Below, in pieces: positions 4,015-28,229 of a stretch of 64,000 bases of DNA. The position numbers and the translations under genes are program-made. Origin of the DNA: Pseudovirgaria hyperparasitica (lineage: Eukaryota > Ascomycota > Dothideomycetes > Acrospermales > Acrospermaceae); contig NW_022985565.1 of the NCBI RefSeq assembly GCF_010093815.1, forward strand, positions 87,924 through 151,923, written 5' to 3'. The notes under the pieces were generated by a model that ran no database searches, was not told the DNA's origin, and saw only the letters and a program-made list of their open reading frames with translations. Each line of letters begins with the position of its first letter. Within the stretch, counting starts at the first letter, position 1.

Positions 4015-4440
4015 AGGTACAGCTCGCTATATATACTTCGATCTCGCTATTATAATATATATAATAGTAATAATCTTAGTATAGTAATAGGTCTTCTCTA
4101 CCTTAGTAAATAAAACTATAATTATATATATTCTTTATAAAATTATAATATTTTATAAATTAACTCTTTTATAATTATTAGTTCTAATTAATAATAGTAA
4201 AAGATAGAGATATTAGATATTAGTAAAATAATAAGAAAGACTTTCTTTAATTACTACTATTATCTTAGATAGACCTTAAAAGGTTACTCTCTACTCTATA
4301 TAAGAGTTTTAAGTTAATTATTATTATTATTCTATAGAAGTTTTTATATTAAGTCTCTTAAATATTATAATATTATATACTATAAGCTATAATCGTAGTA
4401 ACTAATTAATAAGCTATATGCCCTAGATGTCTAAAGGACC
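4015..4440. repeat. Small AT-rich, RIP-like island
   Basis: The sequence changes abruptly from normal composition to TA-dominated sequence with almost no CpA or TpG, then returns to normal composition after about 4440. This matches the large block at 6.1-28 kb and suggests a RIP-degraded repeat remnant. I could not align it to any of the elements in the window, and no coding content is visible. Confidence 0.6.
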
Positions 4441-5016: not shown

Positions 5017-5988
5017 CTATCCAACCCGTTTCTTTTGCGGCGAAATATCTTGCATCTCTTTCTCTAAGGTTTCGATAATACAGTCCATTGATTCAATCTC
5101 GCCACGCCAGCATTTCTGCATTAAAACACTTAGTGGTAAATTGTTAGTCTCGGGAAATCTCCCGCGTGCGTAGAGTTGTCCGACAATTTGACCAGCTCCT
5201 TCCATATACATGTACTCCGAATACGGCGGCTTACCCACAACTATCTCGTAGATTATACAGCCAAACGCAAATATGTCTGTAGCGCGACTGGTTTGGGGCT
5301 GAGCCGGTTTATAACTAAACCATTCATAGCAAGAACCGGCTGAGTCACCATTAAGGCTACAACCTTCAAAATCAATTAACTTGACGCCCTCACTGGTTAA
5401 TATCAAATTATTACATCCCACATCGCAATGGACAATTCCGCAATCGTGAACATGTCTATAACCGGCCGCGGCGCGAATCAGCCACTCAAGCTTCGTGCTC
5501 AGCGATATATTACTGCCGGATTGGCATAATTCTCTGAGGGTAGTACCTCGTTCAAGAATGATACCGTCTTGCCATGGCTGAATGAGCTTTGCAATGGTCG
5601 GATGTGGAGCGAGAAGACCATATGCTTGACATTCGATTTGCTCAGACTCACGCAAGTGAAACTCTTTGTAGACGCGGGCTTCATCAACGCTGTATACGAC
5701 ACTGGCCTTTCCAGCAGCTAGGTATCGTAGCATATTTAGGTTCAGGCTGATCTCCTTCAGTTCATTAGGATACTGTTCGCTGGAGGATTGTTCTTCGGAG
5801 GGGTGTTCGTGGGAGGGGTGTTCATTGGTTTCGTCGGGCTCGCAGTGATTTGAGACAGTCTTGAATCTCTCAGAATCCTGCCCAAGGTCCTTCCAGCTGC
5901 GCTTTCGTGTGAAGCAGCAAAGTAGAATGCAAATAATGGACGTGGCTCGGTCAAGTCGAGAAGCTGTGCAACTGATGTACCTTAGCAT
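5017..5988 (-). CDS. Orphan-type protein kinase
   Basis: This 323-aa protein has a C-terminal protein kinase fold. It is counted from the ATG at 5986-5988; the open frame extends 22 codons further upstream but without another ATG. A degenerate glycine loop (LAAGKASVVYSV) precedes the likely ATP-anchoring Lys108 (RVYKEF). The catalytic loop is HCDVGCNN, with His187, Asp189 and Asn194, and the metal-binding motif is DFE (Asp206) instead of DFG. An ATDIFAFGCIIYE segment corresponds to subdomain IX. The N-terminal ~75 residues carry a short hydrophobic Ile/Leu/Cys stretch and a Glu/Ser/Pro-rich imperfect repeat (EHPSHEHPSEEQ). It resembles the expanded, poorly characterised kinase-like families of filamentous ascomycetes. 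The main catalytic residues are present, so activity is possible; the substrate is unknown. It sits alone between two RIP-type AT islands. Confidence 0.8.
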   Translation of the reverse strand: MLRYISCTASRLDRATSIICILLCCFTRKRSWKDLGQDSERFKTVSNHCEPDETNEHPSHEHPSEEQSSSEQYPNELKEISLNLNMLRYLAAGKASVVYSVDEARVYKEFHLRESEQIECQAYGLLAPHPTIAKLIQPWQDGIILERGTTLRELCQSGSNISLSTKLEWLIRAAAGYRHVHDCGIVHCDVGCNNLILTSEGVKLIDFEGCSLNGDSAGSCYEWFSYKPAQPQTSRATDIFAFGCIIYEIVVGKPPYSEYMYMEGAGQIVGQLYARGRFPETNNLPLSVLMQKCWRGEIESMDCIIETLEKEMQDISPQKKRVG

Positions 5989-6446
5989 GATTGACTGATT
6001 CCGCCGATGAAGGCAGTAAAACCACGAGATATTTGGAGGTCGATTCCGTGACAATCGGTAGCCGGGGCCGGCAAAGCTTTGATCCGGACCCGAAAGGTTC
6101 CGTGGGGCGTCAATGCTACTATCTACCTACTCTATTCTTATAGGTTCTAGCTAATTATTATTAACTATATACTATTATAAAAATAATTTATAAAGATATA
6201 AAGATTAGAGTAGATTAGTATAAAGCTATACTCTTAGAAAACTAGATATATATCTAGTCTAAGAGATCTAAAGAGTTTAATAATAAGTTATAGAATCTCT
6301 TAAAGAAAAGAAAATTATTAAAGAAAAGATCTATATATAGATAATAGCTAGACTTATATAATATAATATAATTATATATATATACTACTAGTTTAAATTA
6401 GATAAATCTATATATATATATATAAGAATCTAATAGAAGTTAGTAA

Positions 6447-6562
6447 TATAAGAATAGAGTAGATAGATAGTAGTATAGCTAAATAGAATAATAGAGTATA
6501 TTCTATTATAGAATAAGTTACTACTAAACTCTCTTAGTAGTAATTAAAGAGTATATATATAT
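6447..6562. repeat. LTR fragment (5' half), same family as the outer element
   Basis: The fragment starts TATAAGAATAGAG and follows the first half of the LTR at 6711-6938, including the region around TATTCTATTATAGAATAA and TTACTACTAAAC, with scattered differences. It stops matching after an AGAGTATATATAT stretch. It lies 145 bp outside the outer element in the same orientation. It may be half of an older LTR split by the outer insertion, the other half being at 27389-27512. Confidence 0.6.
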
Positions 6563-6705
6563 TATAATAGATATAACTAAGATATTACTATAATAGTAGA
6601 TTAAGATATATTATAATTTAACTTTAAGAAGTAGAGATAAATCTATATAGATTATAGCTTAATTATATAGTTTAAGTAAGATTATATAATACCTCTATTC
6701 TAGTT

Positions 6706-6710
6706 CTATC
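6706..6710. repeat. Target site duplication CTATC (left copy)
   Basis: These five bases directly precede the left LTR of the outer Gypsy element. The same five bases follow the right LTR at 27332-27336. A 5-bp duplication is the usual footprint of Gypsy-type integration. Confidence 0.8.
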
Positions 6711-6938
6711 TATAAGAATAGAGTTATTAGATAGTAGTATAGTTAGATAGAATAATATAGTATATTCTATTATAGAATAAATTACTACTAAACCCTTTTA
6801 GTAGAAATCTAAGAGTATATATATAAAGAGATGCTAATCTATTTAGTATATAACTATTTACTATCTATTATACTACCTTCTAACTAAGTTAGCTAAGATA
6901 TATATAGATATAATTATATCTAAGACTAGATTCTAATA
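6711..6938 (-). repeat. LTR of the outer Gypsy element (3' LTR, left)
   Basis: It is 228 bp long and matches 27104-27331 along its whole length. The ends read TA...TA, as expected if an original TG...CA pair was hit by RIP. The polypurine-like tract of the minus strand lies immediately to its right, making this the 3' LTR. Confidence 0.88.
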
Positions 6939-9204
6939 ATTATCCCCTTTCTTTTAGGAAGCTACCCCTAGTAATCTAGATTATTATCTATCTCTATATC
7001 TATATTCTAAGTTCTATAAGACCTTAATTATTCTCTATACTTTATCTTAAATATATATAAATACTAGCTAATCTAAGATTTATATAAGTATTTTTCTAAT
7101 AAACTAGATTTTATCTATTCTAAATTCTTATATAGATAGAATTATCTAATTAGACCTAGTATATTATATAATATAATTAGATAAGTCTAGATACTATCTA
7201 TATTAAAATCTTTTCTTAGAAATATTCCTTTTCTTAAAAAACTTTATAACTTATTATAGAGTTTTTTAGATTATTAGATATATTATCTAATTCTTATAGA
7301 TATAGATTTATATAGATTTACTATAATTTACTATAATTTATATAGCTTACTAACTTTTATAATATACATAGCTAATAATAATAATAATCTATAAGAATCT
7401 ATATAAATTAGTAATAATTATAATATAGTTTTCTAAAACCTTAATACTTAGAAGTAATTAGTATAGAAATAGATACCTTTAAATAATCCTTATCTTATAT
7501 ATATTACTAATATATTAAAAGCTATTAATCTACTCTAATCTAGGCTAGGCTCTAATAATCTAGCTATATATTATTATAGTTATTACTTTCTATTATATAC
7601 TACTTATAGTAGTACTAATTCTATAACTTATAGTATTTATATAACTAAGAAGTATTATTATTTATAGGTATTTAAATAAGTTTAAAAAACTTTATATAGA
7701 TTTACCTATATTAGTATAGATTACTACTAGACCTCTAGTAACCTCTACTAATAAGAAGTATAGTACTACTAATTATAATACCTTAGAGAAGGCTTTCTAT
7801 AAGTTATATATCTATAGTAAGAAGTATATCTAGAAGTATAATTCTAATATAATCTATAAAGTTTTATTAGAATCTACTATAGCTATTATTACTATAATTA
7901 CTAGATAATATTATTTTTCTTAAATTATTATAGATTCTTACTAATATATATTAATCTCTATAATAATACTAAAATCTCTACTACTTTAGACTTCTTTCTA
8001 TATACTAGTAATATTAAAATTCCTAGAAAAGATTCTAATAAAAAGACTAAGATTTATTTCTTATATATATCTAAGAGCTATAAATTTAGAGAAGATAGCT
8101 CTAATCTAGAAGTTTCTATACTAAAGATATATAGTTCTATACTAATTATTAAATCTTTTTACTAATTTATATAATTCTTAGTATATCTATACTAGTCCAT
8201 CTCTCTCTATCCTAGTTTCTACTACTCTATAGATTTCTATAGAGGAATTTATAGCTATAAAACGCGCTATATAGAGTTTATAGCATTAGAATAAAAGACT
8301 AGAGACCTATATTATAAAGCTCTATACTATACTAAATAAAAATTAGTAGAAGAAATTAGATATAATTATTATAGTAATTAGTTCTTCTACTTCTACTCTA
8401 ACTTAATTAGTTTAGATCTATACTAATTAGTACTAATATATTTCTTTTATCTAGTATTTTTAGTTTTTAGTTTTAATTTTAAAGTAATCTTACTTTTTCT
8501 AGATAGATTAGTATAAGTTTATATAGATTTATATAGATCTTTATATTTTCTTTTAGTTTTCTTAATTTTATCTTTCTTTAATAATAACTTCTTTAATCTC
8601 TTTAGTAATCTATACTAATCTATACTAATTAGTACTAATTTTCTATATCTATTTCTCTTAGTAAATTATTTTTCTAAATCTCTTTTTTAGTTAAATTCTT
8701 TAAAGTTCTAAGTTTAAACTCTCTAAGGGAGTTCTAAGTTTAAACTTTCTAAGGAAGTTCCTTAATTCCTTAGAATATTTTAAAGATCTATATCTCTTTT
8801 ATCTTCTTTCTTTTAGATAGCCGTTCTTAGTACTAAACTATACTAAAAAATATTAAATTATTATACTTTAGTATAATTCTCTATAATTCCGCGGCTTCCT
8901 TTACTAATTACTACTTATATACTAGTATTACTACTTTACTAATATTTATTATAGATTTCTAAGTATCTTTATTAGAATTATATTCTTTCTAATAAATTTT
9001 ATATAGCTATATACTATCTTTAGTATATTATTAGCTAAGTATCTACTTAACTTTATAGATATCCGTACCTTCTTATATAAGTATTTTATATAGTATCTAT
9101 TTAGAATAATCTAGTAATAATAAGATATAAAATAGCTTAAGAAGCGTAATATAGAATATATTATATATCTTTAATATAGAAGGGAGTTTTAACTTATACG
9201 CCTA

Positions 9205-9219
9205 GTTATTAATTATATA
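9205..9219. repeat. LINE target site duplication, left copy
   Basis: The 15-mer GTTATTAATTATATA is repeated exactly at 14502-14516. Between the two copies lies the whole LINE. Confidence 0.85.
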
Positions 9220-12200
9220 ATAATAATAATAATAATATTATATAACTAGGTAGAGTAGTACTCTACAGGCCTATGCCTCCTCTAGTCTAAGCCACTATAT
9301 AAGAAGAAACCCCATAGGGAAAAACTTCCTTATGTCTATAACTACATCTCGTTAAACCTCTATTTCGTCTTAAGTATATAGCTATAGGGTACGCCTATTA
9401 GCCTATAGCCTATATTACCGTTATTTTGCCCTTAGGTAGCACGTGTAGGTACGGAGGTTATTAGTTAAGGGCTACCCTTAACTAATAATTAGGGTTCTCC
9501 CGGGGTTCTTCTAGTATATATCGGGTTATTACCGGCGTATACCGGGTCTCTTCTAGTATATATTTCCGGGTCTACTAGTACTAGAGGAGTAGTAGATATA
9601 TAAGTATCTATTAGGAGACGTTCTTAGGGTACTTATTAAGCTATTATACGATATCTAAAGTCTTCGTAACGTAGATAAGCTATTACCGTTATATATAGAG
9701 GTTAGGGTATATAGCTAGATAGTAGCATATTATACCTCTCCGGCCGTACGCCTTATACTATAGAGACACATTAGGAACACCTCTCTTATAGAGATAGTAT
9801 AGAAGTCCCATGGCGCCCGTTCGGGCTTAGATAAGTATAGATACTTAGGCTTTCGTTAGCCCTTTATATATCTATTTACTCAGTTCCTTCTATAGCCCTT
9901 AAATCTACTCTAGGTACCTATCCTACTAGGAGGTCTAGTAGGCACGGAGTGCCTCTTTCTACTTATCTTAAGTCCACGACCGTATATTTTTTATAAGTTC
10001 TTAAAGGCTCTACTAGTCTAGGAGAGCGTCTAGGTTATCTCGGACTTCTTATACTACTTAGCTAGAGTCGGCTTCTATTAAGCACCTATACCGTATTCGA
10101 TTCCGGCCTATATATAGGAGTACGCGGTAATATATGCTAATTTATACACGTAGCGCGGCGAAAGTATATTCTACGTTTTCTATACGTTCCTATACTTATT
10201 ATTTAGTAAAGTATACTACCCTCTATATCTAGTAGAAGTTATATATACTTATAACGTCTGTCTCGCGTCGTAGTAGTACCGTGTTAGTAGCTTTATATAC
10301 GCCTAATATAAGACGGAGTATACGGTTCTATATAGATTCGAGCTTTATTCGCCTAGTCTATATAAGGGCCGTATACTAGTACTCGTGTCCGTACGTGAAG
10401 GCGGGTCGTACTATAGATATATATAGCTAGCGTGCCTTATCCCGGGCGGTTCCCTACGTGGAGACTATAATCTATTATATGGCGGCTTCTATCTAGAGGG
10501 CCCTAGAGACGGCGTATGCCACTTATGGTCCCTATTTAAGCTTACTATCTAGTATAACTCCGAGCGCGCGCATGCTTTATACTAGTAGTTCATTAAATAC
10601 GTTGATTCGGGGGCGTTATTCGCCTTCCCTAGTTACCTATTTCCCTTAACGATTAATAAAGTATATAAGCTAGTATTTCTCTAGGGCGAACTTTGCTCTA
10701 TGGCGTTTTACCTACTAGAGGCACCTCTCGTGGTTCTATTCTAGTCGTCTATACGTTCGGTTGGTATTATTATTAATGGCTAGGAGGTATATATTATCGG
10801 CGTATCCGACTACCTCTATATACTTTATTCCTTAAAGAAGGTCTACTATAAAGAAGAGGAATAGGATTAGAGAGATAGTACTCCCTTATAGGATGCCGTA
10901 TACCGTCTCTTTATATTCGCTCTAGTACCTAGGGATATGTATCTAAGTTATTCTTCCTATAAGGAATAACTATATAAAGCGTGTAATCTATTCTAGTATT
11001 CGTCTTATCCGGAGGTTATAAATAAGTCTTATATAGTTTACCTTATTAAACGCTCCGGCCATATTAAGGGAGAGGAGCGATACTACCCGTCTCTATTTCT
11101 ATACGGCCTGGACGACTTTAATAATATATTAGATAGCTATTATTAGAGAGCTATCTACCTTTACCTTCTGGTTCGGAGGGAGGAGATTATATTTCTATAC
11201 CGCGGTACTTATCTTCTTTACTATTATAGCCTCTAGTATCTTATCTAGGTAGAAGAGAAGGGCGATTAGTCTCTATCCCTTTAGGGAGTTAGGGCTCTTT
11301 CCTAGTTTCGGAAGTATAATAGTATAGGCGACTCGGAAGCTCTAGGGGTGGTACCCCTACGTGACGTATACTTAGAATATATAAGTAATAAGCGGTAGGG
11401 TCGCTTTTATAGTGCTTTTTAGACATTAATTTAGAATTCCATCTGGTCTAGGTGCTTTATCATTTAGAAGTATCTTAATAATATTAAGTATATTCTCCTC
11501 CGTAACTTCTTCGGGGATATCTACTATATATAGATATTCGGCGCCGTAAATATCTAATAGGTCTACTAGTTCCGGGAGAGGGAACATGGCCTCCCGTAGG
11601 GCCTTAGTTTTCTTAAGGCTCGTGGAGTATATTCTCCCCTAATATATTAGGGGAGGTATAAGTAGCGGGGGTGTCGGAGTATCTACGCCCTTAGCCTATT
11701 TCGCTATGCGCCATAGCCCTATTACATATTATATCTATTAACTAGTAATTATACGCTACTATTTACGTCTTTCGTTATAGAGGACTTTATTACGTTATTA
11801 TATCGCTTCCTTCTATTCTTTCTACGACTCGGGTATTCTCGTATAGTATACGTGTATATATAGCCTTCGGGCGTCTTATCTACTTTCCTATACTTAAGGA
11901 ATCCCCTTTACTTCCGGGGGCCGGTATATTTGGTATAGTACGTGTTTATTTCTCGTATTCTAATATATTTATAGGAGTATCTATACGGCCTGGTCTATAG
12001 CTAGATCGTTAGATATATCGACTATAGAGGGATCTAGAATCGCCGATTCCAGGTCCTTTAGGTACTTTTCCTAGTCGGTGTCCTTCTATATCTATCGTCC
12101 CCGTTATTTATTCGGGGTATATACGTTTATTATAGTTTCTATATATTTATAGTCGGAATCCGTCTATACCTAGCCTAGGCGGTAGTATTAGATCTAGTAA

Positions 12201-14501
12201 CTAATATACTCCGTAGCGAAGGTAAGGTTAAGCGTAGACCCGTCTTTATCCTATTTATATTTTTTCTATATAACTTATCCCATAGGTGTAAGTAGGTATA
12301 GAAAGTCGTGGTAGCGGGTACGTAGTTCCCTTACTCTAAGTTCTTCCCTAACTACGGCTAGGCCTCCCTACTATTAGTAGTAGAGGTTAAAGTCTTCTAG
12401 GAGGATGTGTTACCCTAGTTCCGTGGTACCCTCGAGTATCTTATCTAGTATAAGTATATATTATTAGTTATATATATTATATATATATAGGGGGCCTATA
12501 TCTATTTATAGGTGTAGTATTATCCTAAGGTTATCGCGCTTAGTATACGACCATAATAAGAGTAGTATTAACCTATAAATGTAGAAGAGGACTTATCTTT
12601 CTAGTCCTAGAGAGTGTATAGTATGGTATCCGGGGTGTATGGTTGGTTTACTCGTCTAGTAGTGTTTATAGGGTTCCTAGATAGCGAGTATTATAGCCCT
12701 AGTCTCTTCGAGGAGCGTCGCCTAGTTCTCTCTTTTATATTATATATTTACCTATATAATTCGGAGTATATTCTAGTCCCTTATTAGATACTAGGGAGTA
12801 TATATACCTATATACTTATTCCTTAGAGGCGCGACTGTCCTCGCGCGGTAGCGGCTTTAACTATACCTTTTAGTTGTCCTATCGTCTTTAGGATAGTCTA
12901 CTATCCCGCCTAACTACCTTCTAGAGGGGAGGTTAGGGGTATTATAAAGGAAGGGCTCGTGGTAGGTGTTATATTCTATAACTATCTCGTGTCTCTCGCT
13001 TTTATCATGCGAATGTATTCTATGACCTATTTACGTTTTATATACGTTAACGACCACGACGGGTATTTCCTATTATAGTTTAAATACTATACTATATCCC
13101 TGTTTCTTAGTCCGTCTCCTCGCGGTTTATAAGGGCACTTCTAGATAGCGTGGTCCCCACGGTACTATCCGCACTTAGTCTTCTATAAGCACCTTTATAT
13201 AGTATATCTATACCCTTAATAGTTGAAGCACTATATTATTACCTATGCTCTATCCTATAGCTCGGCTATAAGGAGCTCTCCTTCTATTAGGAATCCCTTC
13301 TATATAATGCGTTATATAAGGGCGGGGTCTTAGAGCTCTATAATTATAGTAGAGTGTTTTTTTGCCGTCGTCTTAATCGCCTATAGGTTCTTCTACTACG
13401 CTTTTATAATCTTAATCCCTAGGTATTTTTACGTGTTGGATTATTCTATACACGTAATATCCTCCGCTCCGATAGCCTATCCCTACACGGGTACTACGTG
13501 TACTATAATTAGGTATATAGCTACCCTAATAGACGCGCCGGGAAAGATACTACCTATCACGTTCGGATCTCGCGAGATGTTTTACTACGTAGTATTTATT
13601 ATAGTAGTAAGTACTACCCCACCTAGCGTAACTTTAGTAGCCACGACGCTCGACTACATTCCTTTCTATTCGTTAATCTTATTTATAATTTCCTTTAGGG
13701 ATGCCTATTAGACCTACGCTAGCGTGTCCTTATCCTAGATTACGACACGTATACTATATGCTCTATCTATGGTTCTAGTAGTCCTTAGTACGGTGGCTCC
13801 GGGTATTATTATAATCTAAGCCCACGTGTTAGGGCGCTTACCTTAGAATAGCTCTTTCTAGATTCTCCGTAGGCTGGCTTCTATTTAGTTGAGTCTACTA
13901 CTAGGTTTCTCTCGTGGCGACTTCCTTTCTTTCTCCGTGATTTCTCTTAGGTTCCGGATAAGGTCCCGGAATACATGAAGGAGGGTCTTCTTTCCCTCCT
14001 CGGCGTCTCTCTCTATATATATTACCTAGTATTTAATTTTATCTAGGAGGGTCTCCCCTCTCAGGGTCCCCTCGGTCTAGGTTATCTATAGCGCTTTACA
14101 CCCTTAGTTAGTTCCTATATTTTAGATAGGTGTCTAGCTATCCATATTAATGTCGCTATATGGCCGTTTCTACCGTACTAGTGGGGGTATATCCGGTATA
14201 TGCCGGGGTATTACGATACCTAAGGCCGCTATAGTTATTAGTTAAGGGTAGCCCTTAACTAATAAAAGGGGGTCGGCGTGTCGGCGTTTATTAGATATAG
14301 TCTATACTCGTGTTATCGAAGAGTCTTCGAGTATATATATATAGTATCTCTATACGTCGGTATTATCGTGTATTATACACTATACGTACGCACATATGTC
14401 GGAGGTTATTATACTTAGTATACTCTATTATTTAATGTATATAAATCGCTGTTTTACCCCGAATTAACTAGTTTAGTCCGTTAGAGTGTAAGAAGTTTTT
14501 T
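9220..14501 (-). mobile_element. Tad1-like non-LTR retrotransposon (LINE), moderately RIP-mutated
   Basis: This 5.28-kb insertion is bounded by an exact 15-bp target duplication. The left end is an ATT-type 3' tail, so the element is on the minus strand. Going 5' to 3' on that strand: a CCHC zinc-knuckle-like stretch near 13.15-13.20 kb; an endonuclease (EEP) motif where the family's GDFN reads EDFN at 12386-12397, followed by a LLTPMG motif; and a reverse transcriptase core reading GYADN in place of YADD at 10793-10804. In-frame stops are scattered through both reading regions, typically TAG or TAA where TGG or CAG is expected, which is the RIP signature. GC content is higher than in its surroundings, so it suffered RIP less or later. 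The order of domains and the fungal host suggest the Tad1 clade. The 5' end at 14501 may be truncated. Confidence 0.85.
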
Positions 14502-14516
14502 GTTATTAATTATATA
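14502..14516. repeat. LINE target site duplication, right copy
   Basis: It is identical to 9205-9219. The integrase-side sequence of the outer Gypsy element resumes directly after it. Confidence 0.85.
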
Positions 14517-16281
14517 AGTAATCTTATATAGATCTATTATTATATAGTTAAGCTTCTTCTTTAGTCTAATACTATAAATATTCTTACTATTTAGTAAAAC
14601 TTTATCTCTAATATTAAAGATTATAGGTTTTCTACTCTTATTATAGTATAATTTACTATAATCTATAGTATCTTATAGTAACTTTATAATACTTCTTTAT
14701 ATTTAGAATAGTTCTATAATAATCTCTATTACTTTAATATTAGATTATTCTACTTTAAACTATATTTCTAAGAACTACGCCTTATAGTTCTAACTAAAGT
14801 TTACTTTAAATAGACTTATATAGATTAATATATATTAGCTATTATTATATATAAATTGTATAATATAGACTAACCTTATCTAATTATTATACTTATAGTT
14901 ATAATATATATATAAATATACCTTAACTATCTAATTCTACTACTCTATCTATCTATCTATTTATAGATAGAATATAATACTAAGTTTCTACTTAATTCCT
15001 AGTATATAGTAGAAATCCTTCTAAAATTTAGATATTATCTATAGATCTCTATCTAAAACTATATTATTTAGTATACTATAGAGCTAAACTATATTATAGA
15101 GTAGTATATCTATAAGATCTAATACTTAGATTATCTTTCTTATAGAGATATAGTATAATATCTTTATAAATCTATCTAGAACTATAAGTAAACTATTATA
15201 AATATATCTAAAATACTTACTTAGGGGTAGATCTATAATAAAATCTATTAATAATTTCTTCTATATCTTCTTTAGTATAGATAATAGTCTTAATTTACTA
15301 TATAGTAAGTATCTATATACTTTTATATACTAGTAAATATTATATATTTCTATATAGTTCTTTATATATTTATAAAGATCTAGCTAGTTATATATTCTTT
15401 AAATTAAATTAACTATTCTTATAATACTAAAGTATTCTACTAATATATAATTATACTATTCCCTTAAAATATTAATCTATAAGCTATCTTCTAGTATATA
15501 GAGTTAGTCTTAGAAATATATTATATCTAATTATTATTTTTATCTTAATAACTATAGCGGATCTATAGCGCTTTCTTTTATACTTATAACTTTCTTTACT
15601 AATATATTAGAATTCTAGATAGATTTAATTAAGTCTTTAAGGGTTTTCTTAGTTTCTTAGATATTTATTTAGATTACTTAATACCTACTCTAATTTCTAT
15701 AGAGAATTACTAAAAGTATTCTAGCTTCTAGTATTCTATTAGATAACTAGTCTTATAGTATCTATAGTATAGTATAGTCTAAATTATACTAACTATCTAT
15801 ATTATTCTATAATAATTTCTTATAATCTTTACGCTATAATAGAGGATTAGCTTTATTCTCTCTTCTAGCTGTATATACGATTTTAAAGTTAAATATTAAT
15901 ATCTACTTAGCCTAGTATACTTATTAGTAATTAAGAACTTTAGTTAATATAAAGTAATATAGATTTATATAATCTAATAATAATTTAATCTAATATATAG
16001 AATCTTCTAAATAATATTACTATTACTTAAAACTCTTAATAATTATAAGTAGTTTCTAGTTATATATATTATAATATATCTCTATATCTACTATTTTATA
16101 GAAAAAGAAGATAACTAGATACTATTATATCTTATCTTTTATATCTTTATATAGTTAACTACTAATTCTAGTAATTATAAATTCTAATATATTAGTTTCA
16201 ACCTAAATATACTTCTTAGAATTAAAATACCTAAGAATTAGTATAGTTATAAAGTAATTCTTTAATAATTAGAATATATCT

Positions 16282-16861
16282 NNNNNNNNNNNNNNNNNNN
16301 NNNNNNNNNNNNNNNNNNNNNNNNNNNNNNNNNNNNNNNNNNNNNNNNNNNNNNNNNNNNNNNNNNNNNNNNNNNNNNNNNNNNNNNNNNNNNNNNNNNN
16401 NNNNNNNNNNNNNNNNNNNNNNNNNNNNNNNNNNNNNNNNNNNNNNNNNNNNNNNNNNNNNNNNNNNNNNNNNNNNNNNNNNNNNNNNNNNNNNNNNNNN
16501 NNNNNNNNNNNNNNNNNNNNNNNNNNNNNNNNNNNNNNNNNNNNNNNNNNNNNNNNNNNNNNNNNNNNNNNNNNNNNNNNNNNNNNNNNNNNNNNNNNNN
16601 NNNNNNNNNNNNNNNNNNNNNNNNNNNNNNNNNNNNNNNNNNNNNNNNNNNNNNNNNNNNNNNNNNNNNNNNNNNNNNNNNNNNNNNNNNNNNNNNNNNN
16701 NNNNNNNNNNNNNNNNNNNNNNNNNNNNNNNNNNNNNNNNNNNNNNNNNNNNNNNNNNNNNNNNNNNNNNNNNNNNNNNNNNNNNNNNNNNNNNNNNNNN
16801 NNNNNNNNNNNNNNNNNNNNNNNNNNNNNNNNNNNNNNNNNNNNNNNNNNNNNNNNNNNNN
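16282..16861. other. Assembly gap (580 N)
   Basis: A run of N lies inside the outer Gypsy element. By alignment with the inner element it falls on the reverse transcriptase portion. The gap length may be an estimate made during scaffolding. Confidence 1.
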
Positions 16862-18249
16862 TATCTAATAGTTAATATATAGATATAAACTTCTATCTTT
16901 CTTCTTTATAAAGAGAATAGATATACTAGCTAATAATATACTATAATATATCTAGTCTCTTCTAAGGTATTCTTTAATATATTTATAAAGAACTTTAAGT
17001 TCTAGTCTTAAAAGTAGATAAAGTAGACTATAAGGGATGTCTACTCTCTCTTTAAGCTTAATCTTTAGCTTATATAGTCTATAATTAGAGAGAAGTAATA
17101 TATCTTCTACCGAAAATATATCTATATACTATAAATATATATTAGATAGTATATCTTTACTCTAATTATTACTATTATCCTTATCTTTATTAATAATTAA
17201 TAAGAATATAAGATAGATTAGTAATAATTAGATCTATATAGTAAGATTCTATATCTTCTTACTAACAGTTATAACTTACTAGTATAATTTACTATAATAT
17301 TAATAGAATATTAATATTTTCTTCTAAAAATTAAGAATAGAGTTTAGATATTTAAGCTAAGGTATCTCTAGAATTATATTCTATTAGCTAATATTAGCTA
17401 TAATAAATTTATTAGATATCTACTATTTTATTATCTTTAAGTTATAAACTTTATAATTTATTATAGCTTTATCTAAAGTTCTAACTTTATATCTATTAAC
17501 TATAATAGTTTAGCTAACCTTACTAAGATTATATAATAATCTATACTCCTTTATAAGAATTAATAAAATATAGTTATCTTCTATACTAGTATCTATAAGG
17601 GCCTATATAGTTTTATTACTATTTACTATAGATAATAATACTTTTAGTAATATTAGGTCTTTACTTACTAGAAGACGCTATAGCTTCTTCTAAGTATATA
17701 TAATTTAGCTAAGAATATAATTAGATCTTATATACTAGTCTATTCTTTTTTTAGATTCTTATAGTTAGATAAAATATATTCTATTTCTCTATACTTATAG
17801 TAATAAAGTATACTATAATCCTACTATTTTATAATAGATATTATATTTAAATCTATATCTTATTCTTTTCTATATTAAGAAGTACTATCTTAATTATTTT
17901 AGTATTCTCTTAATATATTTCTACTCTAATTTATACTCTTCTAGTACTAATTATAGTAAGATTACTCTTAATTAAATATATTTAATTAATCTTATTTCTA
18001 ATCTATATAGAGTTTATTAGTTTTATCTAGAGAGCTATATTTCTTAAGGATATAATAGTATTTATTAGCTTTCTTCTCTAATTTATATAGATAGTTAAAA
18101 TCTAATAATACTATTTCTAGTCTTTTATAGATTAACGGAAGTAGTACTTTATAAAACTAGAATATATAAATATTTTTCTATAGCGTAGAGATATTATTCT
18201 ATAGGTTTTATAGGTATTATAGTAGTTAAGTAGATATCTAGTTCGGTTA

Positions 18250-18254
18250 TTATA
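18250..18254. repeat. Target site duplication TTATA (left copy)
   Basis: TTATA directly precedes the left LTR of the inner element and recurs at 26266-26270 after the right LTR. Confidence 0.75.
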
Positions 18255-18494
18255 TATAAGAATTATAGACATAGGATAGTAGTCTAATAGATTATAGAAG
18301 GATTTAGAAATATATTTAAAAGAGTAGTCTACTCTTATAATAAGGTTAATTTCTAAAGAGTAGGAATTAAGTATATATAGTCTACTTATATAGTAGTCTC
18401 GCTTAATCTAGCTAACTTAACCTAGGTCTACCTATTACGGACCGTACTAGACTATAGTAGTCTAGTTAAGTCTACCCTAGTATTAGCCCTAATA
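18255..18494 (-). repeat. LTR of the inner Gypsy element (3' LTR, left)
   Basis: It is 240 bp and near-identical to 26026-26265. A shared landmark is CTATTACGGACCGTACTAGA. The ends read TA...TA, consistent with an original TG...CA. Confidence 0.9.
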
Positions 18495-20537
18495 ATATTC
18501 TTCTTCTTTTTATACTTCGCTCTAAAGTACTTAGCTATATATAAATCTATAATTCTATAAGCGTTATATTTATATACGTATCTAATTAAATCTATATAAT
18601 ATTATTAATAGTCTTTATATTAGTAAACTTAAACTTTAGTTTACTTTTATTTATATACGCGCTTATCTCTTACTTTCTAGCTACTATCTTAGAGATAGCT
18701 CCGCGGGTTATATAACTATTATATTAATTAAGCTTATATTTAGTTCTCTTATTCTAAATTTTCTTCTTTAGTATATCTACCTTACTCTTAAGATAAGTTA
18801 TTAATTTATATACTATCTCCTTTAGTTTAGATCTATTTAGATCTAGAGTAGTCTATTCTTATTAGAGCTAGTCCTATATAATCTATTTATATTATTATAG
18901 TTACTAATTTAGCTTCTTTAATCGCCTTTAAGACTAAGCGAGTATTCTACTCTTAGATCTCTAGCTAATATATATATATAGATATCTAATACTAGTTCTA
19001 TTTCTAAGCCTACCTTCTTCTCTTATAAGACTTACTCTAAAGGAATTACCTCTACCCCGGCTATACTAGCTAAAAAATCTACTTATTATAGTAGTATAAA
19101 GGCGCGCTCTAAGTTAGAGAAGAAGATAGCTAAGACTACTACTACTATTACTACTAATATAGCTACTAGTTACTCTAATCTAGATAATTCTAGTACTAGT
19201 ATTACGGAAGAGATAGCTATAAAGCCTATCTATATCTACTTATACTATCTATCTACTCTATCTTCTTTAGAGAATAAAGAAGATCTTATTATAGATAATA
19301 ATTAAGAGTTTATACCTTTACCGCCCCGCTCTAAATACTATTTCTCTTTTTAGTCTAATATAGACTAACTTAGTTACTCTAGATTCTTTTAGAACCTTAA
19401 TATTTACTTTAAACCTAGCCCTAGTAATAATAAGGCCTAGATTACTAAAGATACTAAATATAGTCACGGTTTACGCTATAGGAAAATAGTAAACTATAGT
19501 TTAATATACTTTAAGTATATTAAGGCTTATATGACTAGCTCTAAATATCTCTTCCGCTCTAACTCTAGTATTAGCTACTACTCTACTAACTATAATAGAT
19601 CTATATATCTAATCTTTAAGCTCTCTACCCGCTACTACTACTATACTATTCTTAGTAAAGTTTATCTTTAGATAAGTCTATTAGGCTATTTTAGTCTAGA
19701 GTAATCTAAAGTTATCTATACTAATATATTTTTAGGTTTCTATTTATATATAAAATATATATAATAATCTTCGTGTCTATAAGACTCTTAGTAGTTCTAG
19801 TAGTTATCTAGCTTCTATATATAGAGAGTTTAGGGAGCGCTATAAGCTCTTTCTAGAGGTTATTAAAATATAAGTTTAGAAACTATTAATTACTATTAAC
19901 CTTAGCTTATAATTTTTAGTTACTATAAGATTTCTAGTATCTAGACTACCTATTCTAGGAAGTTAGTTTTAGCTACTAAGGCCGTAGAAGAGATTTATAG
20001 TATCTCTTTCTATCTAACTTATACTACTAACGGGTCTTATAAGAGATCTACTAGTTCTCCTTCTAAGTTACCTTATAAGAGAGTATATATTCTATTCTAG
20101 ATTATTCTAGATTATATTAGCTAACTTTAGATCTAGTCGCTCTACTCTAGCGTGTAGTTCTCCTTCTACTAGACTCTAGTTAATTAGATATCTACTCTAG
20201 AGGATAAGATATCTAACCTCTACCGCTATATTATCTATCTAGATTAGTTAATTTACTCTAAAGAGGAGGATAAGATAGAGGAGTAGCTCTATAGCTCTAT
20301 TTACTAGGGTTTCTATATAGTATATATTAGCTCTATCTACCTAGTTTCTATCTATTTTAGTCCTTTTTAGACCGTTTAGATACCTATTTACTAGTTCTCT
20401 AGTAATTTAATTCTTAACTTAATAATATTATATACGCTCCTATTTATTCTATAACTATTAAATTTTAGGTTCTAATTTCCTTTAAGTTACTTAAGTATAG
20501 GTATTATATATAAATTAGTTTATCTCTCTAAATTATA

Positions 20538-20632
20538 TTAGAGCACCCAAACTAGTAGTCTAGTAGTTATTAGTTCGGGTACTCTAACCTTTTATATTAT
20601 ATATTACGAGTTTAATTCCGTAGTAGAGTACC
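20538..20632. repeat. Double inverted repeat inside the inner element
   Basis: TTAGAGCACCC (20538-20548) pairs with GGGTACTCTAA (20577-20587) apart from one G:T-type position, and the inner arms around CTAGTAG pair further. The overlapping GGTACTCTA (20578-20586) also pairs perfectly with TAGAGTACC (20624-20632). A box-B-like GAGTTTAATTCC lies just before the second arm. The T stem of a normal tRNA does not form, so I do not call a tRNA. Confidence 0.45.
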
Positions 20633-23600
20633 TTTTTAGTTTCTTAGTCCTATATTCTTCTCATATATAATAGTCTATATTAGTCTATTCTAGACTTCTC
20701 TATATTATTCTATTATAATATATCGCGTCGCGTGCCTATAACGGTTATTTACGTTTTCTTCGCGTTTAGTAACCGTGTATTACTTGAATTATAGGGCTAC
20801 CTTATAGAGTTTTCCTAGTATATATTTAGGATTCGTAATTTAATACTTCGTTCTCTACGGTATCCTTCTTCTTTTTATAACGGCTCTAACGGCGCTAGGT
20901 TTACGGTAGTAATATATTATTCTATAACCTCTATTTATATATAGATATTACGGTACTTAAGATATATACTATAGGTTTCTAGGTATCCTTATCCTTAGTA
21001 TAGTTCTTCTAGTAGATTTAATACTTCTAGATACTATTCTTATTAAGTCTATATTCGATAATATAGTCTACTTTATATACGTCTAGTCTATCTTAGAGTA
21101 TAATAGAGTATAATTATATATTTATATAATTATATACGTTAGATCGAAACCTTTTAAGTAATAAGATATAGAATATATTATAGACTTTTATATCGTTTCC
21201 TAGATTAAGCTTATAGACTCTTATACTAATATAGTATTTAATTTAGAAGGGACTAGCTATTTTATAGTTAAGCTTTTTATTTACTTATAATATCTATATA
21301 TTATAGATATTAAGAAGGACTTCGTCTCTCTTCTTATATATTTAATCTTTAACTAATCTATTATAGTACTTTATATATAACTTATTTACTTACTAGATTA
21401 TTATACGATAGTTATATACGGTTTTAAAGATTTTAATCGCTAGTTTCTACGCGTGGACGTTAATATCTATTATTTAGTTAAACTAGACCGTATAAGGTTT
21501 AAAACCTATCCTTAGACTATATTCTAGATTTATCTAGAAGGGCGTAATATCTATTATACTATAACGACTATTATTATATACGAATTCTACTATACTTAGT
21601 AGAGAGGCCTAGTTATCTTATTCGAAATTATAGAATATACGAAGATAGACCTTAAGTGTTTAGTTCTATTACTCTATCTAACTATCTATTTATAGATAGA
21701 ATACTATTAATATATTCCTATTTATACCGGCTATTTTATAGAATAACGTCTAGAATTTAGACGTGAATATACTCCCTTAGTCTATAATAATCCTTTTTAG
21801 TATACTATAGACCTTAATAATCTTATTCTAGAATACTTATACTAGTTCTTTTAATATAATTATCTTCTATATAGAGATATACCTAGATATCTTTATAAGT
21901 CTATCTATAATAATAAGAATTAAATTATAACTTATTCTAAGTATCTTACTTAGAGGTAAGTTAACTATAAAATCTATAATAATATCTTTCTATATAAAGA
22001 GAGGGACTAGTAGAGACTATAAATTTCTATGTAGCTTATACCTAGATACCTTTATTCTTTAATAAATTAGATAAGTAGCTATCTATTCTTTAATATACTT
22101 AGGTATATCGTTCTAAAAGTAGTACTAATAAATCGAGCTTAGGGTATATATATACCCGAAATATTCTACTAGGTTAGTATTATAGTATCGGCTAACTATA
22201 GTAAATTATATATTATCTATTAGTATATAGTACTTTCTATTATAGTAGAGTAAGCCGTCTATAAAGGTCTACTTATAGTCTACTTTAGTCCGTAATAACC
22301 TATCTTACTATATTTTATATAACTTTAAAACTATTAGGTCTATCTTTTATAGATTTATAATTAACTAGGTAAGATCTACTTAATATATATACTAGGTACT
22401 ATCGCCCTTTCTAATAGTACTAATAAATAGCTCGCTAGAGACTTCGGTACTATATCTTTAGTTACTAGCTTTAGTCTTATAAATTTAATTACTAGTATTA
22501 GTATTAGTATCTTACTAATTATTAGATAACTTATTATCTAACCTTATCCTTAAGAGTTAGATCTATAGCTACTCTAGAATTCTATAGCTACTATAATTCT
22601 AGGCGCCTTCTTTATAGTTAGGTCTTCTTAATATTCTATTAGCTAGGTTTATACTTCTAGATTGATAGTAGATTATAAAGTAGAAATTTATAAGCTACTT
22701 AGCCTATTAAACCTATTAATGATTTAAAACTATTATACTTATAAACTCCTTTAAGTTATAGTAATTAGTTAGTAACTTAACGTTATATATAGTACCTTTA
22801 AGATAATATTACTACTACTTAAACGACTCTACTATTACTAGTAGCTCTTAGTTATAAATAGTATATCTAGTCTTAATATTAGCTATCTTACGTAAGAAGA
22901 ACGTAACTAGATACTATTAGACCTTTTTAGACTCTATTAGTCTAGGCTAGAAGAGTATATCTAAGATTATAAATTCTAATATATTAGTTTTAACGTAAAT
23001 AGATTTAGTTAGATTAAAGTATACTAGTAATAGAGTAGTTATAAATATCTCTTTAATTTTCTTAAAGGATATTCTTTTAATCTCTATTAATTTAATAGAT
23101 TACGACTTAATATTATACTATTTCTATCTACTATAGACTATAATAGATAAATTAGTAGTAGTAGTATATATATTAAGTAGTATAGCTAGATAGAAGAAGT
23201 ATTTAATAAATTTTTAATAGTAGTTAGCGAAGCTAATAAAGATATATATATCTTAGATAGATTTTAGTTTAGGCTATTCTATAATAGTAGTAACCCTATC
23301 TCTCTCTATAATTATATCTTAGTTAGTAATAATAAAGCTAAGAAAGTTAATATAGTTCTAATAGAACTTATATTTGGATAGCTTAATATATAGCTTATAC
23401 TTTTCTAGTCTATCTAAGACTATATATATATACTAGATATACTCCTTCTTATTATCTAAGAAGATAAGAATATTATCTAGGTATACGATATATATCATGT
23501 CGAGTAGATCTACTAGCGCGTTATTAATATATACTTAGAAGGTACCTAGTATATTAGTTAGTCTAAAAGAGACTATAGTATACTTAAAGTATCTATAATA

Positions 23601-26025
23601 GATTCTAAAAGCCGTTTTCTATTTCTTACCCTCCTTAATATAAAAGTAATAGTAGATATTATATAGATTAAGCTTAGTAAAGATCTTTATATGTTCTAGT
23701 CTATTAATAGACTTAGAGATAAGAGGTAGTAGATAATAATTCTTTTATATAATATTATTTAGACTATAGTAGTTAATATATAGATAGAGGCTTCTATTCT
23801 TCTTCTTTATAAAGAGAATTAGAGCTCTAGCTAGAGATATACTAGATCTAATCTATTCTCGCGTAAGGTTCTTTTTAATATATTCTTAAAGGACTTATAA
23901 TTTAGGTTCTAAAAGAGAGTAGATAGGTCTATATAGAGGTTACTAGCTATCTTTAAGATTAATAGTAAGGTTAGTAGATTAGTATTAAGGTAGTTTAGAG
24001 GAATTAATTACTAATATAATATATTAGTATATTTTATACTAATATAGTAGGTTTTCATCTACTTTAATACTAAGCTTACTATTTTAGATAAGTAAGAGTA
24101 TATAGATAGTAGAAATTACCTTCTTATAATCTTTATAGAATTATTTATTATTAATAAGCTATACTAGTTTCTATTAAGGTAGGTTTATACGCTAGCTAGC
24201 TATTTTCTTAAGGAAGTCTAGTTTTAGATTATATTTCTTAAGCTATAGTATACCTAGAATTATATTAAAGGGACTATCTACTATAATAAAGGTTAAATAG
24301 TAGGGTTTCTATTTCCCTCCGCTATCCTAGATACTATATTTAATAGTATAGATACTATATAACTTAATAGAACTATCGATACTATAGAATATAGTATCTA
24401 TTAGAGCTTAGATATTAATACTAAGTTCTTATACTTATTAAGTTAATATAATATTAGTAGCTAAACTACTATTAAGTATTATAGTCTAATATTATCTATA
24501 AGGGACCTTAATAGGTCTAGTCTATAGTTTAATATACTATTTAACTAGTTATCTCTCTATTATAGTCACGTCTATAAGTTATAAGGGTTTCTTATAGACT
24601 ATTAGTTTTTTATATTCTATACTAGGTAGTTAGACGCGATATATTCTAGCTATTAGTACTTATAATATATAACTAATTAGTTAGTTATATTAGTACTTAG
24701 TAGTTTTTCTAAGTAGTACTTAGGTACTATATATTCTATTCTACTATAGATATAGTAAGTAACTTTAGGTTATTTATGTAAGTTAGTTCTTATATCTTAA
24801 GATATTAATTAGTAGAGAGACCTACGATATAGTCCTCGTGGTTTTAAATTTAAGATATAGTAGTAGTCTTATAATATACCGCGAGATCTATTACTAAATT
24901 AGTTTTAGTTAGATAATTTTATATTAGATTAGATTATTAGGGATAGTTATATACTAGCACGGCGTTAATTATTTATTATATACTAGTATTACTCTATAAG
25001 GTTTATAAGAGCTTAGAGATCTATAGAAATTATTATTATAAGATTAAGATAGTTCTTTATATTTAGGGTAAGAGACTATTTAAAGTTATTATACTATTAA
25101 ATTATATAATCTTCTTAAGCTTCTCTCTAGAGAGGCTAAAGGTATTTAAGAAGTTATAATAGTAACTAATTATCTTATTATCGAGTCTTAAAGATATAGC
25201 CCTAGGCCTAGTCATATTATTTAGCTCTATTACTAAAATATTAGAGAAGAAATTTAGTAAACATATCCTAGTTATAGATATTCTTAGAATATTTAATTTA
25301 GTATACTATCTAATGTTCTAAAGGCGTTAGATTAAGGTAGTTCTAGATAAATCTAATTTTATTACTATCGTTTATAAATAGATAGAAGAATTAGCTATAT
25401 TAATAAGTCTATATATAGAAACTCTTTCTACTTTTACTATTAAAGTAAGATAGTTTCTTAGGTCGAGGTAATTAGGATAGTAGTAGACTAGAATAGACCG
25501 TTTTAGTTAGTATAGGTCTATATAAATATAGATTAGTTATTACTAGAACTAAAGCGTATAATATAGCTTTAAGTCTTATAGTATATCCTTAAGCTTTATT
25601 AAGTTTATATAGTTATTACTTAAGTTAAATCTATTATTATCTCTCTTTATATAGTCTAGTATATATATTATTATAAGGTATAGTTAATATTAGATAATTC
25701 TAATAGATTAACTTATTAACGTTAATAAGGTCTAGCCTTATATTAAGGTTAGATCTAGTATAGTTTAAACTAGACCGGGATAGAGTATAATAGACTCTAT
25801 TCTTATATTCTATAATATCTTCTATAGTTATATAGAATATTATATAAGTTATTAGTATAATAGTCTATAAGGTATAGTTATTAGTAGAGGTAGTTATAGA
25901 TAGACTATTCTCCTTATTTAGGTTAGAAGAAGGTCTACTATAAGAGGCGGTACTATAAGTATTATAATAAGCAGTTAGAGCTATTTCTATAAACTACCGT
26001 CGTGCTATATAAAGAGAAATTAAAA

Positions 26026-26265
26026 TATAAGGATTATAGATATAGAATAGTAGTCTAATAGATTATAGAAGGATTTAGAAATATATTTAAAAGAGTAGTC
26101 TACTCTTATAATAAGGTTAATTTCTAAAGAGTAGAAATTAAGTATATATAGTCTACTTATATAGTAGTCTCACTTAATCTAGCTAACTTAACCTAGGTCC
26201 ACCTATTACGGACCGTACTAGACCATAGTAGTCTAGTTAAGTCTACCCTAGTGTTAGCCCTAATA
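26026..26265 (-). repeat. LTR of the inner Gypsy element (5' LTR, right)
   Basis: It has the same length and the same ends as the copy at 18255-18494. Transcription of the element would have started here and run leftward. Confidence 0.9.
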
Positions 26266-27103
26266 TTATACTATACTTCTTAACTTAGATAGTATCTTTC
26301 TTTTATATTCTCTATCTATTCTAAGGATATTTAGTATAAATATAGCTAGATATTCCTAGGTTATTATAGATAGTAGCTATACTTCCTTCTATCTATTCTA
26401 TTAATTATAGAATTATAAGTCTAGATATTATTCTCTAAATAAAATATATTATACTTTAGTAAAAAAGAGTAGAGGGTTATTAAGGAAGTACTTTTTATAG
26501 TCTCTTTTCTAGTCTTTCTACTTCTTTTAGTTCTTCTCTATAAATATAGTTAGATTCTTAGATTTTAGTATATCTAGAGAAGAAGTAGAGTAAATTAGTA
26601 ATAAAGTAGCTAGAAGTATAGTAGATTATTATAACTCTAATAGTAGGTAAACTAATTCTATCTAAATTAGTATAGAAAGTTATCTATCTACTATTATTTA
26701 GCGTAGTTCTTTAAGAGACTCCTTAAGTTCTTATCTCTTTATAAGAAGTTTTATATATTCTATCTACTCTTTAAGAGTTTAAATCTCTTAGATTTAACTA
26801 ATAATATACTTCTATAGTTTAGTAATAGTTTATTATAATATCTTATATAGCTCTACTATAACTTATTATCTAGCTTTATATTATTAGAAGTTACTTAGTA
26901 TATCTACTATTTCTTTATCTAAAAGCTCTATAATTTAGTCTAATATCTCTACTTCTTAGTTAGAAATAGCTAGAATTAATATTAATTATAGAGAATTTCT
27001 ATTATTTAATATAGTATTACTTATCTCTATAGTAGATTATATTAACCTTCTTAGTTCTAGTTAGACTATCTTAACTATAGTACTATATAGATAGTAATTT
27101 AAA

Positions 27104-27331
27104 TATAAGAATAGAGTTATTAGATAGTAGTATAGTTAGATAGAATAATATAGTATATTCTCTTATAGAATAAATTACTACTAAACTCTTTTAATAGAAA
27201 TCTAAGAGTATATATATAAAGGGACGCTAATCTATTTAGTATATAACTATTTACTATCTATTATACTACCTTCTAACTAAGTTAGCTAAGGTATATATAG
27301 ATATAGTTATATCTAAGACTAGGTTCTAATA
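27104..27331 (-). repeat. LTR of the outer Gypsy element (5' LTR, right)
   Basis: It is 228 bp, matches 6711-6938 end to end, and is followed by the CTATC duplication at 27332-27336. Confidence 0.88.
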
Positions 27332-27388
27332 CTATCTATCTTAGCTCTATTATATAATACTAGAGATAAAATAAAGCTAAAGTCTATA

Positions 27389-27512
27389 ATATATATAAAG
27401 CTAAGATACTAATCTATCTAGTATATAACTATTTACTACTTATTATACTATCTCTAGCTAAGTTAGCTAAGATATATCTAGATATAGACTAGTCTTTAGC
27501 TAATTTCTAATA
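27389..27512. repeat. LTR fragment (3' half), same family as the outer element
   Basis: The stretch follows the second half of the 228-bp LTR (ATATATAAAG, CTAATCTAT, GTATATAACTATTTACTA, AAGTTAGCTAAGATATAT) and ends TTTCTAATA. Its orientation is the same as that of the outer LTRs. It complements the 5' half found at 6447-6562 on the other side of the nest. Confidence 0.6.
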
Positions 27513-27694
27513 AGTAAAGAGTAATATATTAGATATACTCTAAGAAACTTAACTATCTAAATACTATATATAAATTACTTAGTATTAATATATACTATAA
27601 GATAAAGTCTATTTAAAAGTAGTCTAAAACTATAAAAGTATATAATAATTTAGATTACTAAAGATAGTTTCTTAAAGAGAGAAGATATAGTAAT

Positions 27695-27941
27695 TATTAG
27701 AAATAACTACTAGTAGCTAATAGCTAAACTCGAGCTCTATATATTAGAGCTAAGATAGTATAAATAATAATAAATAGTTATATATAGTAAATATTAGTAT
27801 ATCTTTATATATATATATATTCTCTAATTACTACTACTACTATAATAGAGCTTAGTAGTAATTTAGTTCTATAATAGAATATACTCTATTATTCTATCTA
27901 GCTATACTAGTACTCTACTATCTAATAACTTTATTTTTATA
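27695..27941 (+). repeat. Inverted LTR copy, same family as the outer element
   Basis: The reverse complement starts TATAAAAATAAAGTTATTAG, continues through the block TATTCTATTATAGAA and TATATAACTATTTATTA, and ends TTATTTCTAATA. This is a complete but diverged LTR of about 247 bp in the opposite orientation to the outer LTRs. The bases on its two sides (GTAAT and CTAGC) do not form a 5-bp duplication, so it is not a clean solo LTR. Confidence 0.6.
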
Positions 27942-28229
27942 CTAGCTATCTATATATTATAGTAGTAGTATTTACTAGTAATATCTAAAACAACCCATGA
28001 AATGAAATCACTAGTTATATTATAAGCTAAGCGCTAGAGACGTATAGCTACGTAGGTACGCCTTCTATAGTAACCTCTATCCCCCTCTAAGCGCAGTAGC
28101 TTCGAGTTTCGACCATTTTGGTGGAGTGGTATGGTCCCTGGAGCGCTTACCTCTACAGTTAGTCTACTAATTCTAGCAACTGTTATCTCTTGCTTCTTAC
28201 TTACATCTATCATCTCTCTACAGGCCAGA

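Follow-up and report, generated by a model that had tools for sequence, protein, structure and literature searches.

The window analysed here is the whole stretch of 64,000 nucleotides at positions 87924-151923 of contig C17, in a genome of 35.0 Mb assembled in 59 contigs. Some 22 kb of it (6134-27941) are free of genes and consist of defunct mobile elements inserted one into another. This nest separates two divergently oriented open reading frames. The left one (5017-6126, minus strand) has protein-kinase relatives, and the right one, taken from the list of open reading frames (28074-30353, plus strand), we take to encode glutamyl-tRNA synthetase. Both have normal base composition and normal indices of repeat-induced point mutation (RIP), and thus show no visible spread of RIP from the nest. 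Additionally, a small AT-rich, RIP-like island lies at about 4060-4400, between two open reading frames upstream of the nest, and has weak similarity to the Gypsy bodies (best match 77.5% over 80 columns, E 7e-7).

The largest component is an outer Gypsy-type element that spans 6711-27331 together with its inserts. Its LTRs (6711-6938 and 27104-27331) match at 220 of 228 positions from end to end without gaps (BLAST E 7e-107), and both copies of its CTATC target duplication are present (6706-6710 and 27332-27336), as the original prediction had described. Removal of the two inserts leaves 20,621 - 5,297 - 8,016 = 7,308 bp, a length that counts the part of the body reading N. The expectation that this subtraction would yield a normal element size is borne out by the distance between LTR ends in two other copies (7,440 bp in L041 and 7,384 bp in L044, the latter without matching duplications at its ends), while L040, a rearranged copy, measures 6,219 bp. 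The very low GC content of one bin was discarded as a genuine compositional feature, being due to N letters. The domain scan of the partly N body returned RT_RNaseH_2 alone, on the minus strand and below threshold (17.3 bits, cut-off 29.8). This match and a purine tract adjoining the left LTR indicate that the element is probably coded on the minus strand. At the DNA level, it also resembles the inner element over a short stretch.

The inner Gypsy element (18255-26265, minus strand) is similarly delimited. Its LTRs, at 18255-18494 and 26026-26265, are identical at 232 of 240 positions without gaps (BLAST E 2e-113), and the two TTATA copies that had been noted beside them are both there (18250-18254 and 26266-26270). 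Pfam scans of plus-strand frame pieces gave no match, and the minus strand was therefore scanned for all three large elements. In the inner element, matches above cut-off were found there to reverse transcriptase (RVT_1, about 23328-23774, 36.0 bits) and RNase H (RT_RNaseH_2, about 22791-23069, 32.8 bits), followed by a Tf2-type SH3 match below cut-off (about 21147-21326, 24.1 bits, cut-off 30), which corresponds to the Gypsy order. Domain scans of the inner element and of the partly N outer body detected no integrase core. Both Gypsy-type elements thus combine paired direct LTRs with a 5-bp target duplication, the combination by which LTR retrotransposons are recognized.

The third large component is a LINE on the minus strand (9221-14501), with a (TAA)n tail at its 3' end, which lies on the left, and an RVT_1 match at about 10661-11284. 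An endonuclease match (Exo_endo_phos, 27.8 bits, cut-off 27.4) was obtained in the less mutated copy L031 and corresponds by position to about 12141-12488 of the window, whereas no RNase H was detected in the frames scanned. Reverse transcriptase, endonuclease, a 3' tail, target duplications of variable length and the lack of an LTR identify the element as a LINE; the same pairing of reverse transcriptase and Exo_endo_phos is seen in fungal endonuclease-type LINEs. The seven proteins most similar to the window LINE are fungal and share 29-36% identity with it; two of them come from Podosphaera aphanis. The presence of a LINE with a target duplication had been predicted correctly, its Tad1-like label being a candidate assignment, but the duplication, GTTATTAATTATATAA (9205-9220 and 14502-14517), is 16 bp long according to the alignment and the unoccupied sites, and not 15 bp. 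Among 20 other copies, 17 have direct repeats of at least 14 bases at their ends and three have repeats of 8-10 bases.

Pattern searches of the whole genome returned 139 LINE 3' ends and 84 LINE 5' ends, with no match for the controls; on the 20 fetched copies, the 5' pattern recovered 19 and the 3' pattern all 20. A stricter 5' pattern with 54 matches caught 13 of these 20 copies and was replaced. Although all 26 scored copies (of 411 candidates) were full over the query, the notion that this LINE is never truncated was abandoned, given that 5' ends are scarcer than 3' ends genome-wide: some copies stop short of the 5' end, and many appear to extend to it. A palindrome of about 31-34 bases was also observed near both ends of the LINE (9458-9491 and 14232-14265), and it occurs at both ends of other copies as well.

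The LINE and the inner Gypsy element are siblings that occupy separate places within the outer element and share one level. The divergence of the LTRs was discarded as a means of dating: of the 16 differences in the two LTR pairs, 15 are transitions such as RIP makes, and the remaining one is an A/C transversion in the outer pair. Transversions are not made by RIP. The window LINE carries no private transversion in 4,951 bp and differs from 20 relatives by 2-9 transversions, whereas the window inner element (18495-26025) carries 33 private transversions in 7,531 bp, compared with 1-4 in each of seven other full-length copies, and differs from eight relatives by 35-60 transversions per approximately 7,530 bp. 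Copy L032, whose body length differs, was excluded from the count of private transversions and from several later comparisons. Given these few LINE and many inner transversions, and what is established about the two families, the LINE probably inserted last. The opposite sequence within the same nest, with the inner Gypsy element arriving last, is a less likely but serious alternative. The inner LTRs, free of transversions over their 240 bp, set no minimum age, and their RIP-type differences carry no date; the contrast between 0 and 33 private transversions speaks against this alternative. These figures bound the age of a lineage, not the date of an insertion: the inner copy could belong to a divergent lineage that jumped late. 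The excess of private transversions in the inner element is in itself an observation that may reflect either an older or a separate lineage. For the outer element, comparison with five other copies gave 29 transversions in 4,068, 39 in 6,240, 28 in 2,736, 40 in 4,906 and 49 in 6,216 bp; one piece of 176 bases (17 transitions, no transversions) was excluded from these totals by a length limit.

Across the nest, CpA is nearly absent. In 500-base bins, the ratio (CA+TG)/(AC+GT) ranges from about 0 to 0.11 in the Gypsy bodies and from 0.13 to 0.40 in the LINE, compared with 1.19 in the window to the right of 30,000. The mutation spectrum itself can be read directly: pairwise comparisons among 21 LINE copies of equal length over 4,951 bases yielded 76,911 transitions and 1,160 transversions (66:1), and 356 of the 358 CpA sites with an invariant second base show C/T variation. 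This decay is consistent with RIP, the mutator suggested by what is established about such families, which would produce C-to-T transitions in repeats, at CpA first, and spare single-copy DNA. That the AT-rich decay instead arose from ordinary mutational drift or methylation decay appears highly improbable, as the changes sit in repeats while neighbouring genes are spared, are nearly all of C-to-T type on either strand, and fall in the CpA context in those 356 of 358 testable sites. The LTR termini follow the same pattern. Both Gypsy elements in the window read TA...TA, which had been ascribed to RIP acting on TG...CA. Among full LTRs of the outer type, two of 15 carry one of these termini (one starts with TG, one ends with CA), and three of the 18 full LTRs of the inner type end with CA while none starts with TG; no LTR of either type has both. 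These rare ends in less mutated LTRs make TG...CA altered by RIP the simplest explanation of TA...TA.

We also observed that, after CpA, C-to-T change strongly prefers CpCpT over CpCpC, CpCpG, CpG and CpT in the LINE, inner and outer families, as sampled from loci L012-L044 and window positions 6711-27331. At LINE sites followed by two invariant bases, C/T variation affects 180 of 223 CpCpT sites, 5 of 37 CpCpC sites and 2 of 14 CpCpG sites. The corresponding counts are 236/271, 1/8 and 0/5 in nine copies of the inner family, and 67/86, 1/5 and 0/2 in outer-family pieces represented by three to five copies; CpCpC and CpCpG sites are few in all these counts. The T share at CpCpT averages 0.164 in the LINE (n = 223) and 0.253 in the inner family (8 copies, n = 291), compared with 0.009 (n = 51) and 0.039 (n = 29), respectively, at CpCpC or CpCpG and 0.022-0.023 at CpT. 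Change at CpCpT rises with change at CpA across copies (Spearman 0.60, p = 0.004, n = 21; 1.0, n = 8), while no significant link across copies was found between change at CpT and change at CpA. Where the base at +2 is variable, 17% of the LINE copies with T at that position have T in place of the first C, as do 3% of those with C; the values in the inner family are 22% and 6%, respectively, comparisons that are confounded by local RIP intensity. Similarly, the CpCpT share is higher before A and after T, which may reflect local intensity. Our findings make it reasonably likely that the RIP machinery of the host recognizes CpA and, at a lower rate, CpCpT, largely sparing CpCpC and CpCpG, and that the repeat families record this trinucleotide dialect.

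Some of this has precedent. In the portions of the RIPCAL paper (PMC2621366) considered here, CpA is the dominant target, as in this nest, and a TpCpG bias is given for Microbotryum together with CpC depletion in Stagonospora nodorum repeats. According to the same portions, change at CpT ranks second in some fungi, with a questionable link to RIP, whereas the second context here is CpCpT. No paper was found in the literature that contains both "repeat-induced point mutation" and "CpCpT", although papers with "trinucleotide context" exist, and the portion of PMC7882544 considered here mentions neither Pseudovirgaria nor "trinucleotide" nor "CpC". Trinucleotide bias as such is already known. Incidental though it is, the CpCpT preference may prove more novel than the nest itself.

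Unoccupied versions of the insertion sites were sought by joining 300 bases of each flank and comparing the product with 44 fetched loci. The outer site is crossed in seven of them, without gaps in L002 (96.2% over 212 columns) and with 3-12 gap positions in the other six; the LINE site is crossed in six and the inner site in four, in every case gap-free. As the loci were chosen by similarity, these counts are not rates. The target sequence is single in the loci that lack the insert, in some of them with C/T or A/G differences. The 5-bp duplications match in two of three other outer copies and in five of eight other inner copies with both full LTRs, and the rate at which two random 5-mers of the nest coincide is 0.0066. 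Since each of the three insertion points is crossed by loci without the insert in question, the predicted order, with the outer element first and both inserts later, is upheld, and the outer element is firmly placed as older than both of its inserts. Either outcome that had been named as fatal to this reading, LTR pairs failing to align or homologous loci with separate solo copies, is the opposite of what was found: both pairs align throughout their length, and the homologous loci contain unoccupied sites.

It is hardly credible that there is no single outer element and that its LTRs are separate solo copies, or pieces joined by ectopic recombination or mis-assembly: the outer family is abundant (at least 43 matches, with 40 of 270 candidates scored) and more LTR pieces flank the nest on both sides, but CTATC matches on the outer sides only, the body pieces are collinear in relatives, the remainder after subtraction has an ordinary element length, and the loci crossing all three insertion points contradict separate copies.

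Beyond the outer element, the interval 6706-27336, which had been taken as the whole nest, misses three older layers just outside it. The innermost of these, a 203-bp unit designated B, was the target of the outer element and is divided into a left part (6563-6710) and a right part (27337-27391). Six other loci share both of its ends, and two of the six have 5-bp duplications of their own (TATAC and ATATC). On contig C21, two B-type LTRs (L005 and L006, about 279772-301858) are separated by approximately 22 kb and have ATACG in common at their outward-facing ends, which suggests another large nest with a B element as its base. Because its ends recur in six loci, because of the TATAC and ATATC duplications and because of the shared ATACG on C21, B was taken as an LTR of a third family. 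In the window it is flanked by TATAT (6558-6562 and 27392-27396), a duplication that lies within low-complexity sequence.

B splits a solo LTR of the outer type, A', on the minus strand. Its left half (6447-6562) is 90% identical to positions 1-115 of the outer LTR and its right half (27392-27512) is 89% identical to positions 107-202; each half includes one TATAT copy. A' is flanked in turn by AGTAA (6442-6446 and 27513-27517). The oldest layer is an outer-family relic on the plus strand, inverted relative to the outer element, with a left piece at 6134-6446, whose left limit is uncertain, and a right piece at 27513-27941 that includes an inverted LTR-like end (27752-27941). With A' removed, the relic flanks align in inverse orientation to the outer LTR and the part of the body next to it (759 columns, 70%, 254 bits), compared with at most 52.7 bits in 100 dinucleotide shuffles and 36.5 bits for the reversed sequence. 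A 30-base LTR-like match at 6113-6142 was rejected as a candidate for the end of the relic, its score lying under the shuffle maximum. The interpretation of A' and B as solo-LTR layers would thus draw on the duplications, the split halves and the relic alignment.

We are therefore highly confident that the stretch 6134-27941 is a retroelement stack built by successive insertion over five generations. The layers follow in the order relic, A', B, outer element and then, side by side, the LINE and the inner element, because B splits A', AGTAA flanks A', and the flanks without A' align to the outer family. The nesting proposed in the original prediction is retained, but its count of three levels is not: there are five generations, and the two inserts it had placed in the outer element share a single level. 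In terms of events, an outer-type LTR element would first have inserted into an old relic of the outer family, A' would then have received an LTR element of the third family, and B would have received the outer Gypsy element, which later took in the LINE and the inner Gypsy element at separate places. From what is established about these families, integrase would have inserted the LTR elements and produced the 5-bp duplications, and target-primed reverse transcription would have brought in the LINE with its 16-bp duplication, while the bodies of A' and B were probably lost by recombination between their LTRs. RIP in sexual cycles would then have changed CpA to TpA and, less often, CpCpT to TpCpT, and so broken the reading frames.

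The nest is unusually legible, yet of a well-known kind: nested, RIP-mutated clusters with verified duplications have already been published in fungi. In the sections of PMC4522978 considered here, 78 nested clusters of 7.5-63 kb with two to seven elements each are described for Mycosphaerella graminicola, with an LTR element as the base in 49 of them and duplications verified in 35 of these 49. As far as those sections extend, these clusters resemble the present nest in their LTR base with a verified 5-bp duplication, in their LTR and non-LTR inserts, and in their low GC content and CpA-to-TpA change. They differ in depth, as the deepest bracket examined in Table 4 of that paper contains four families, whereas five generations are found here, counting two solo LTRs and the relic. 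Relative to the same sections, duplications are read here for every layer except the relic.

The value of this locus lies in that legibility. Target duplications survive in every layer after the relic, and relatives with an empty site exist for the three largest insertions; the order of insertion therefore follows from position rather than from divergence, and RIP cannot blur it. The nest thus constitutes a small relative clock against which the growth of RIP load with age can be followed. The preference for CpCpT, if general in the lineage, would matter for the indices by which RIP is detected and for understanding which sequences the RIP methyltransferase targets.
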